Of a DNA stretch of 64,000 nt, positions 36,437-39,109 are shown one piece after another (the stretch's first letter is position 1; every line of letters begins with the position of its first letter). Source of the DNA: Anaeromyxobacter sp. Fw109-5 (GTDB taxonomy: Bacteria > Myxococcota > Myxococcia > Myxococcales > Anaeromyxobacteraceae); NCBI RefSeq assembly GCF_000017505.1, contig NC_009675.1, forward strand, positions 2,170,001 through 2,234,000. Reading direction: 5' to 3'. A program made the position numbers and the translations under genes. The notes beneath the pieces were generated by a model, which did not search any database, was not told where the DNA came from, and saw only the letters and a list, made by a program, of their open reading frames with translations.

Positions 36437-37522
36437 TCACTCCTCGCTTCGCGGCGCGGGAGCGCGCCCGGCGGCGGCGGCGCGGTGGAGCACCATCTCC
36501 GTGGAGGGGCCGGAGCGGGGGCGGCTGGCGGCGTCCACGAACCCGAGCCCGGCGTAGAGGCCCTGCGCCTCGCGCGTCACGAGGCGCACGACCCCGGCAT
36601 GGCGCACCGCCGGGTGGTCGAGGAGGAGCTCCGTCACGCGCCTGCCGAGGCCGCGTCCGCGCCAGGGCGGGGCCACCACGACGTCGTAGAGCCAGGCGCA
36701 CCTCCGGTCCGCCAGCGCCCGCCCCGAGGCGATCAGCGTGCCGTCCGGCGCGCGCGCGCCGACCCACGCCGTCGCCTCGCGGTGAACGGAGGCGATGAGC
36801 GCTCGCGGATGTCCTTCCCACCAGTACTCTCCGGCCAGGAGGGCCTCCACCGCCGGGCCGTCCTCCGGCGCGAGCGCGGCGTGGAGCGTCACCCCCTCGG
36901 CGGCGAGGAAGGGCGGGTCGGCGACGCCGGGGTTCGCCTCCCGGATGGCCTCGATCGCCTCCGCGTCCCCCGGCGCGCCGCGCTCCCACAGGCCGCGCAG
37001 GACCCGCCCGATCTCCTTCGGGCCGAGGTTCTGCAGGAGCTTGAACTTGCCCTCCACCCGCTCGAAGGGCACGGCGAAGACGAGCACGCCGGCGATCGGC
37101 CCGCCGTAGAGGGGGTCCCCGGCCGCGAGGGGCCGGTAGCGGCCCTCGGGCTGCCACCGCCTCATGAGCGCCTCGAGCGCGCGGGCCTTCGCGGCGGGCT
37201 CCTCGATCTCGGTGAGCGTCCCGTGCACCTGCACGCTCCGGAACAGCGTCGTGGCGGGGCATGCGCGCACCGGATCCCGCATCCAGCTCGGGACGCGGGT
37301 CACGACCTCCTCGGCGGAGACGACCGCGGGCCGCCCGAGGCAGGCCGCCTTCTCTCCGGCGCGCGCGCCGTGGAAGTAGACGCCGTCCTCGAGCACCGCC
37401 GCGTCGAGGGCCCGCAGCACGGGAGCGCCGGCGGGGGTGGTGGTGGCGAGGTGCACGACCGGGGCGCGCGCGAGGAGCGGGAGCGCGCGGCGGGCGTCGA
37501 CCCGGAACTCCGCTCGTCTCAT
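36437..37522 (-). CDS. Flavin-dependent oxidase-like/GNAT acetyltransferase fusion
   Basis: A 361-aa protein of two domains. Residues about 10-160 resemble the FMN-binding split barrel of pyridoxamine-phosphate-oxidase-like proteins (VVHLATTTPAGAPVLRALDAAV, GEKAACLGRPAVV, LFRSVQVHGTLTEIE, AVPFERVEGKFKLLQNL). Residues about 215-345 are a GNAT fold with the acetyl-CoA loop VVAPPWRGRGLGRRVTELLL and a closing LYAGLGFVDA. Such fusions may acetylate or detoxify small molecules; the substrate is unknown. The ATG is preceded at 6 bases by TACGCT, so a leaderless transcript is possible. A palindromic repeat element lies directly upstream. Confidence 0.8.
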   Translation of the reverse strand: MRRAEFRVDARRALPLLARAPVVHLATTTPAGAPVLRALDAAVLEDGVYFHGARAGEKAACLGRPAVVSAEEVVTRVPSWMRDPVRACPATTLFRSVQVHGTLTEIEEPAAKARALEALMRRWQPEGRYRPLAAGDPLYGGPIAGVLVFAVPFERVEGKFKLLQNLGPKEIGRVLRGLWERGAPGDAEAIEAIREANPGVADPPFLAAEGVTLHAALAPEDGPAVEALLAGEYWWEGHPRALIASVHREATAWVGARAPDGTLIASGRALADRRCAWLYDVVVAPPWRGRGLGRRVTELLLDHPAVRHAGVVRLVTREAQGLYAGLGFVDAASRPRSGPSTEMVLHRAAAAGRAPAPRSEE

Positions 37523-37538
37523 GCCCGCAGCGTATCAG

Positions 37539-37750
37539 CCCACCGGCTTTGCCGGTGGGGAGGGACGCGGCCGATGGTCCACTGCTGATCGTGCCGTGGG
37601 AGGGCCCCGCGCGAAGCGCGGGAGGGGCGAAGCCCCTCCGGCGGGGAACCTGCGCGCACCCGCGCCAGCGGGCGCGCAGGTTCACGGGCCCCGCCGAGCA
37701 GGGGAGGGGCCCCACCGGCTTTGCCGGTGGGGAGGGGGACGCAGTCCCCC
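37539..37750 (+). repeat. Composite palindromic (REP/MITE-like) element
   Basis: A 212-base gene-free stretch made almost wholly of hairpins: CCCACCGGC-TTT-GCCGGTGGG (37539-37559) and a second copy (37710-37732); CCCGCGC-GAA-GCGCGGG (37606-37622); GGAGGGGC-GAA-GCCCCTCC (37621-37639); a long stem of CGGCGGGG plus AACCTGCGCGC (37639-37657) with GCGCGCAGGTT plus CCCCGCCG (37672-37696); and GGGGGAC-GCA-GTCCCCC (37734-37750). The two outer CCGGCTTTGCCGG copies flank the inner ones. Confidence 0.85.
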
Positions 37751-37756
37751 GTGAGA

Positions 37757-39109
37757 TCAGAACTGCAGCACCCCGGCGACGGACAGCGCGAAGACGCTCG
37801 TCTCGCTGAAGCGGAACCGCCGCCCGGGCGCATCGTAGCGCCAGTCGAAGTTCGGGTTGAGGGCGGCGTTCGGCGTCAGGCCGGTGACGTCCCCGGCTTC
37901 GACGCCGGCGCGGCCGAGGGACTCGCCGCTCAGGAAGTGGGCGGTCTGCGTCGCGAGCGAGCCGCTCGCGTGCAGCGACACGAAGCGGGACGCGCGGAGA
38001 TACAGGCCGAACAGTCCGCCCATGGTGAGGTAAGGCTCGGTGGCGTGGAGCTTGCCGCTCATGTCGCTGAGCGGGTTGTAGAAGCGCTGCGACGAGGTGT
38101 AGTCCGCGAAGGCGCGCACGTCGATCGAGACCTTCTGATCCGCGGAGCGGTTCTCGTAGGGCACGAGCTCGGTGCCGAAGGTGACGCCCGCGATCCACGG
38201 CAGCCGGGCGGCCGAGTCGTCCTCCCAGCCCTGGTCGGCGCAGTTCGCCGCGCCCGCCGGGGTGGCCTCGCCGAGCGCGGGGTCCGCGAGCGCGGCCATG
38301 CGATCGCAGTTGGAGTACGTGCCGCTCGAGCGGCGCATGCCGGTGACGTGCGCCTTGAAGTACGGATCGATGGGCCCGAGCCGCCGCGAGAGCACGGTGT
38401 AGAGGTCGTACTTCCACACCTTGTCCCCGAAGGGCGCGGGGTTGCCCGACGAGACGTGAGGCGACGCCCAGCCGGCGGACCTCGGCCCGGCCGCGGGGTC
38501 GTACATGGACGCCGTCGGGAAGGTGAGGTCGGCGCCCACGAGCCAGAACGGCTTCGTGTCGTCTCTGGCGTCGCTGAAGATCCCCCACGCGAAGCCGGCC
38601 TTCACGTCCCCGGCGCGACCGCCGTGGTAGACGGTCGTGCCCGATCCGACCGGGAAGAGGGGACAGGCGGCCCCGCTCGGATCGCACAGCTGGCCCGTCG
38701 CGTCGATGTCGTTGTTCGCGATGGTGGAGTCGCGCTCCACCGAGAACCCGTTCACGATCGCGTAGCGCCAGGAGTGATCGTCCGCGAGCACGTAGGGCAG
38801 CTCGACGTGGAACTCCACGTCGCGGTGCAGCCCCACCGCGAAGCGCGGGACGAGCGCGTTCGTCACGCGCGTGTAGCGGAGCTCGTCCACGTCCACGACC
38901 GCGCCGAAGGGCGGGTTGAGCGACGGATCGGCCTGCTCGCGGGTGATCTTCCCGCGGAGCTGGGTGCGGTCCCAGCGCAGCGACACGTGCAGGTCGAAGA
39001 GGTTCCCGCCCTCGCTCGTGGCCACGCGGGCGATCTCGGCAGCCCCGGCGGGGCCGGCGAGCGCGACGAGGGTGCAGGCCGCGAGGGCGCGCAGGCGAAG
39101 CCGCCGCAT
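37757..39109 (-). CDS. Outer-membrane beta-barrel protein (hypothetical)
   Basis: A 450-aa secreted protein. Signal peptide about residues 1-23 (LRALAACTLVALAGPAGAAE). The body has alternating beta-strand patterns with many aromatic residues (FAVGLHRDVEFHVELPYVLAD, KVSIDVRAFADYTS, TMGGLFGLYLRASRFVSLHASG) and ends with SVFALSVAGVLQF, a terminal-Phe beta-signal of outer-membrane proteins. Two cysteine pairs (CDPSGAAC and a CDRM...NCADQ loop) lie in loops. I do not recognise the family; a transport or adhesin role is open. A TTGACC-17-TAGCGT promoter lies 55 bases upstream. Confidence 0.7.
   Translation of the reverse strand: MRRLRLRALAACTLVALAGPAGAAEIARVATSEGGNLFDLHVSLRWDRTQLRGKITREQADPSLNPPFGAVVDVDELRYTRVTNALVPRFAVGLHRDVEFHVELPYVLADDHSWRYAIVNGFSVERDSTIANNDIDATGQLCDPSGAACPLFPVGSGTTVYHGGRAGDVKAGFAWGIFSDARDDTKPFWLVGADLTFPTASMYDPAAGPRSAGWASPHVSSGNPAPFGDKVWKYDLYTVLSRRLGPIDPYFKAHVTGMRRSSGTYSNCDRMAALADPALGEATPAGAANCADQGWEDDSAARLPWIAGVTFGTELVPYENRSADQKVSIDVRAFADYTSSQRFYNPLSDMSGKLHATEPYLTMGGLFGLYLRASRFVSLHASGSLATQTAHFLSGESLGRAGVEAGDVTGLTPNAALNPNFDWRYDAPGRRFRFSETSVFALSVAGVLQF

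Follow-up and report, generated by a model that had tools for sequence, protein, structure and literature searches.

Related Elements

The YPAL/RU-2 element of Yersinia reportedly inserts, according to its original description, close behind stop codons, and co-oriented insertion close behind stop codons is also what we found for an element of Anaeromyxobacter. YPAL/RU-2 is about 168 bp long, carries internal inverted repeats, occurs at sites known in both empty and filled states and has been suggested to influence upstream transcripts (PMC2229807). The two resemble each other in size, in having internal and not terminal inverted repeats, in a stable RNA fold, in empty and filled sites and in tens of copies per genome (PMC2229807, PMC2847712, PMC2267715). 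They differ in host, and their sequences appear unrelated as far as an Rfam search can tell. Unlike YPAL/RU-2, the Anaeromyxobacter element is made of five separate hairpins with stems of variable sequence, has a bulged third hairpin (H3) and is without established target duplications. Moreover, YPAL is reported to target places that contain or adjoin dyads, whereas the empty sites of the Anaeromyxobacter element show no local enrichment of hairpins.

Two further groups are comparable. REP, BIME and REPIN elements with their RAYT transposases share with it extragenic palindromes, paired-arm evolution and arrays, but it has a much longer unit, no GTAG/GTGG head and no linked RAYT. CIR (Caulobacter/Brucella), ERIC, RUP and Correia/NEMIS are likewise short repeats dispersed between genes, and their folds are conserved (PMC2229807); several of them have terminal inverted repeats with TA ends, whereas the two ends of the Anaeromyxobacter element are unlike. 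In published descriptions CIR consists of two arms plus a linker, compared with five hairpins here. For all of these repeats the sequence comparison was the Rfam search. By analogy, stop-codon-proximal miniature insertions of the YPAL/RU-2 type appear to be the closest known kind, and we claim membership neither in YPAL nor in REP/REPIN or MITEs with terminal inverted repeats. The hairpin cluster studied here is probably one copy of a non-coding, non-autonomous mobile element family of the Anaeromyxobacteraceae, about 155 bp long, with five GC-rich hairpins that would form a co-transcribed 3′UTR array. We found no published description of such an element in Anaeromyxobacter, and the family is apparently undescribed.

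Hairpin Cluster of the Analyzed Window

The window, i.e., the whole 64-kb stretch of Anaeromyxobacter sp. Fw109-5 DNA that was analyzed, contains a cluster of six hairpins at 37537-37756, at the place where the preliminary description had put six or more. Perfect stems of at least 7 bp with 3-nt loops number 27 in the window, five of them inside the 212 bp of the preliminary description (37539-37750), where 0.07 would be expected from the remaining window (Poisson P 1.6e-8). On either strand the cluster folds, as RNA, about 6 SD more stably than dinucleotide shuffles. Rfam searches of the cluster gave chance-level matches only and no known RNA family; neither an intrinsic terminator with a U-run nor a sigma-70 promoter was found in it, and viral, phage and plasmid searches were negative.

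The full element copy (H1-H5) occupies 37598-37752 on the minus strand and matches our covariance model CM R1 with 129.6 bits (E 2.1e-21), the window copy being one of the 23 copies from which the model was built. The covariation model supports H1 CCCGCGCGAAGCGCGGG (37606-37622) and H2 GGAGGGGCGAAGCCCCTCC (37621-37639), both on the minus strand and both with the GAA loops noted earlier. The interrupted stem that had been proposed at 37639-37696 is H3 (minus strand), in which an outer stem CGGCGGGG/CCCCGCCG encloses an inner long hairpin (37646-37683, with arms 37646-37657 and 37672-37683) and a conserved, asymmetric bulge CACGGG (37683-37688); the outer stem covaries among sub-families, and the inner stem covaries too. 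A conserved core GGGCCCCGCCGAGCAGGGG (37686-37704, plus strand), from which the genome counts given below derive, joins the 3′ arm of the outer stem to the unpaired AGCAGGGG. H4 CCCCACCGGCTTTGCCGGTGGGG (37710-37732, minus strand), with 10 bp and a TTT loop, is the most variable in stem and loop among copies, and the terminal H5 GGGGGACGCAGTCCCCC (37734-37750, minus strand), with a GCA loop, is the side of the element that adjoins stop codons. In the direction of the upstream gene, the stop codon is followed by H5, H4, CCCCTGCT, H3 (an outer stem with a CCCGTG bulge and the inner long hairpin), H2 and finally H1.

Next to the full copy lies a partial tandem copy (37537-37569, minus strand), composed of an H4 hairpin CCCACCGGCTTTGCCGGTGGG (37539-37559, 9-bp stem, TTT loop) and a truncated H5 (GAGGGACGC); 26 nt of it are identical to 37711-37736 at an offset of 172 bp. 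The spacer between partial and full copy (37570-37597) is free of hairpins. The layout of the partial tandem copy recurs in a 175-bp x3.3 array at positions 4436663-4437236 of the same genome (G000). The cluster had been described as bounded by two copies of the CCGGCTTTGCCGG hairpin. These enclose most of it, the first (37539-37559) being H4 of the partial unit, but H5 lies beyond the second copy, so the right end of the cluster falls at about 37752-37756.

Site in the Window and Flanking Genes

The upstream gene (37757-39109) is read from the minus strand; it encodes 450 AA without Pfam or NCBIfam match, and its 3′UTR would hold the element. The element stands 5 nt past the stop codon of this gene and starts with H5: in the junction TGATCTCA (gene sense; 37752-37759, minus strand) the stop codon TGA (37757-37759) is followed by TCTCA and then by CGGGGG. 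The downstream gene (36437-37522, minus strand) encodes a 361-AA fusion of Pyridox_ox_2 and GNAT domains, and the partial unit ends 16 nt ahead of its start codon. The earlier remark that the first hairpin overlaps the promoter region of this fusion is reasonable as geometry only; the family as a whole is linked chiefly to the stop codon of the opposite neighbour.

Both sister species (G005 and G008) retain a regulator gene between the 450-AA gene and the pyridoxamine-oxidase/GNAT fusion, and in G005 its product has a GntR and an aminotransferase domain, an arrangement of the MocR type. This MocR-type gene is missing from the window, and the element is found in its place, the spacer at 37570-37597 marking the position. 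Because the regulator gene separates both genes in both sister species, the window site itself has no clean empty orthologue.

Copy Number and Distribution

A genome search for the repeat units, as the preliminary description had proposed, revealed many copies in the own genome (5,277,990 bp, one contig) and in relatives. The own genome has seven long homologous places including the window copy, the six others at 84-93% identity, as well as many partial ones; three of the copies form the 175-bp array mentioned above. There are 22, 46 and 60 occurrences of the core GGGCCCCGSCGAGCRGGGG in G000, G005 and G008, respectively, against four or fewer in each of the six other genomes of the genus; a reversed-core control gave 0-2 matches. 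An extended core was found, among the GTDB genomes scanned, only in the sister species A. soli SG29 and A. terrae SG22, the own genome possibly being absent from that scan. The covariance model has a wider reach, with matches in 14 of 24 genomes and four of six genera of the family and with 15-64 matches in each of 8/9 Anaeromyxobacter genomes. Outside the family, the core pattern gave one stray match among 123 genomes of the class. These results add an apparently undescribed element family for the whole of the Anaeromyxobacteraceae.

In the draft assembly of A. terrae, G/C-run artefacts and N gaps were seen at hairpins (L084, L085, L086, L121, L122). Because of such artefacts and gaps, and since many copies stand at contig ends, the copy numbers in both draft genomes are lower bounds. 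A related sub-family in the own genome (G000:C1:3154790-3155535, L015-L018) forms a 208-bp x3.7 tandem array in which the stems differ while core and end are the same. Five element units with 129-bp spacing were seen in another Anaeromyxobacter genome (G001:C1:3535158-3535816). A further sub-family (L116-L119, L124-L128, L255) has the core GGGACCCGGCGAGCAGGGG; its H3 is different, and one more hairpin (GACAGCGTGATTCGCG...CGCGAATCACGCTGTC) adjoins it in some cases.

Relation to RAYT Transposases

The preliminary description had read the cluster as REPIN-like, in which case a RAYT enzyme (Y1 HUH transposase), cutting palindromes in single-stranded DNA, would move it as a REP/REPIN element. The GC-rich extragenic hairpins, their orientation and the tandem units fit such an origin, and the proposed RAYT search did find an ORF in the own genome, the sole one there, although its REP_Tyr_transpos match (54.7 bits) falls under the curated cut-offs. 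Y1/RAYT-like ORFs are present in 8/9 genomes of the genus irrespective of element copy number. Inverted REPs with GTAG/GTGG heads are described as invariably flanking RAYT genes (PMC2817692), whereas motif and covariance-model searches of 20 RAYT-like loci gave no element copy out to a distance of about 1.5 kb. A GTAG or GTGG head is found at neither end in the 23-copy alignment, where the conserved parts are the ACGGGG end, the CACGGG bulge and the GCCGAGCAGGGG core, and the unit is one of five hairpins and not a REP of 20-40 nt. Membership in REPIN/RAYT is not supported, because no RAYT-like gene stands near a copy and the head is absent. Replication-strand bias is absent as well: a lagging-strand insertion preference as in IS200/IS605 was rejected, with 53 vs. 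44 copies over four genomes (dnaA was seen at the start in three of them) and significance in none. We consider mobilization by RAYT very improbable. Behind the RAYT-like ORF at L031:1402-2349, the stretch L031:2510-2720 holds a number of roughly 30-bp repeats (CTCGCGGACCGGTTACTCTCGGCGGGGC).

Empty and Filled Sites

The other part of the earlier reading, a MITE-like non-autonomous mobile element, agrees with the many copies and with the comparison of orthologous sites in relatives. After ftsY there is a full element in the own genome and different element remnants in G005 and G008 directly after the same stop; in five species the next gene overlaps or nearly touches ftsY, leaving no room for an element. 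At rodA a full copy was found in the own genome, a half copy in G008, an apparent decayed remnant in G005 and none in the others. Fifteen further gene boundaries were compared, with sister species lacking the element at L082, L088, L080, L097, L100, L106, L116, L121 and L126; the insertion at L088 lies between two divergent genes. At ychF, another of the fifteen, four species carry the element and the own genome lacks it. These empty orthologous sites show the element to be inserted DNA. Nested insertions and stubs were also seen (L097, the L108 group, L273, L275). The ychF and L072 sites are common to distant species, so that part of the distribution is old, either vertically inherited or re-used.

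The element is thus multi-copy, short and non-coding, with both empty and filled sites, as in MITEs, and it has no terminal inverted repeats, its GGGAGGG side being unlike its CCCCCGT side. Clear target duplications were established at none of the sites compared; a 5-nt CGCGT repeat at L116 is a candidate that could arise by chance in GC-rich DNA. We found no transposase that can be linked to the element. Two opposite copies 2.2 kb apart in G001 were considered as an autonomous parent and rejected, as no transposase was apparent by eye among the intervening long ORFs. At the boundary 3′ of rodA where other species have the element, G003 and G004 carry CCCGTGCCCGTGACC-like repeats (L223, L224). 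A long GGGGTC-type microsatellite fills an intergenic region of the own genome (G000:C1:5007080-5007938, L292) in which A. soli has the element.

Position and Orientation at Gene Ends

Copies are oriented with respect to genes. The H5 end faces the stop codon of a converging gene in 43/51 copies from the three close species and in 29/43 from other species (combined 72/94, P 2e-7), with genes called by a simple codon-composition finder. A stop codon lies 0-12 nt from H5 in 35/51 copies of the close species, while the H1 end is placed less tightly, with broad left-end distances. Among these 35 close copies, TGATC starts at the stop in ten, vs. 10/202 background gene ends (P 9e-5), and the stop is TAA in seven, vs. 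5/202 (P 4e-4). The copies are not all independent sites, and these P values are optimistic because some orthologous sites were counted more than once. The bases at the junction look as if the element's own end (TGATCNNACGGGG or TAACGGGG) often supplied the stop codon. Terminator-like dyads were rejected as the insertion target, since empty sites are not enriched in hairpins: the folding energy just past the stop is -17.8 there and -17.7 at background gene ends.

The element makes a case, open to testing, of insertions that stand directly after stop codons in a single orientation. A more specific reading, which we put forward tentatively and regard as rather unlikely in full, is a lineage-specific element that recognizes gene ends. 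A putative enzyme would insert it in one orientation a few bases from the stop, the terminus might replace the stop (TGA, TAG or TAA before ACGGGG), and the folded five-hairpin DNA or RNA with its conserved bulge would serve as substrate. If an enzyme does target gene ends, this would be a useful and unusual insertion specificity.

Structure Kept by Paired Changes

The folded shape is held while the sequence changes, by paired changes in the stems. In close copies, a 57-pair model is 95.9% paired, and two-sided changes occupy 80 cells vs. 28 in shuffles and vs. three cells with one-sided changes. Among diverged copies from other species and genera, two-sided changes occur in 35 of 51 pairs (235 cells vs. 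54 in shuffles), in an alignment that was fitted to the model and hence leans towards it. The H3 outer stem, which is outside the 57-pair model, is complementary in 85/99 copies (shuffled mean 41, maximum 57) and takes the forms GGC/GCC, CGC/GCG, GCC/GGC or CGT/ACG. Swaps from G-C to C-G are frequent between copies. One-sided changes are few, unlike in RNA covariation by the G-U route, which suggests additional correction of one arm by the other at the DNA level.

Strong covariation, together with the fixed orientation and position after stop codons and the ychF and L072 sites common to distant species, would also be expected of a conserved structured 3′UTR or terminator RNA under selection, not mobile as such and only occasionally spread from one gene end to another through gene conversion or recombination. 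The many empty sites in sister species, the insertion between divergent genes at L088 and the tandem arrays and nested copies argue against such an RNA, as do the missing Rfam match and U-tract and a number of two-sided changes far above that of one-sided ones, unlike slow covariation by the G-U route; we judge this explanation improbable. The rarity of one-sided changes and the frequent G-C to C-G swaps fit concerted copying of arm onto arm. The palindromes might then be kept mainly by mutation, through template switching, and be functionless, with stop proximity reflecting the survival of harmless insertions, in line with broad left-end distances and ordinary flanking genes. Yet the conserved unpaired CACGGG bulge and AGCAGGGG are left unexplained by template switching, as is tight stop-codon spacing at the H5 end alone, and its probability seems to us similarly low.

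Under the preferred reading of a non-autonomous mobile element, the element would move as DNA with an enzyme supplied in trans, and insertion or survival would favour the first bases past a stop codon, which the element's own terminus TGATCNNACGGGG or TAGACGGGG could provide. Transcribed together with the upstream gene, it would then make up the 3′UTR, and its array of hairpins would probably serve as a barrier at the mRNA 3′ end or as a modulator of transcription or translation. If mRNA ends are modulated in this way, tens of genes per genome, ftsY, rodA and ychF included, would be re-tuned differently between sister species. Copies also duplicate in tandem, nest and decay. Other short palindromes are themselves nested in element copies, namely CCCTTCGGCAAGCTCAGGG and CTCGACTTCGC...CTACGCTCGGGGTGAGCG (L168, L177 and L179 in H4; L008, L020, L022).
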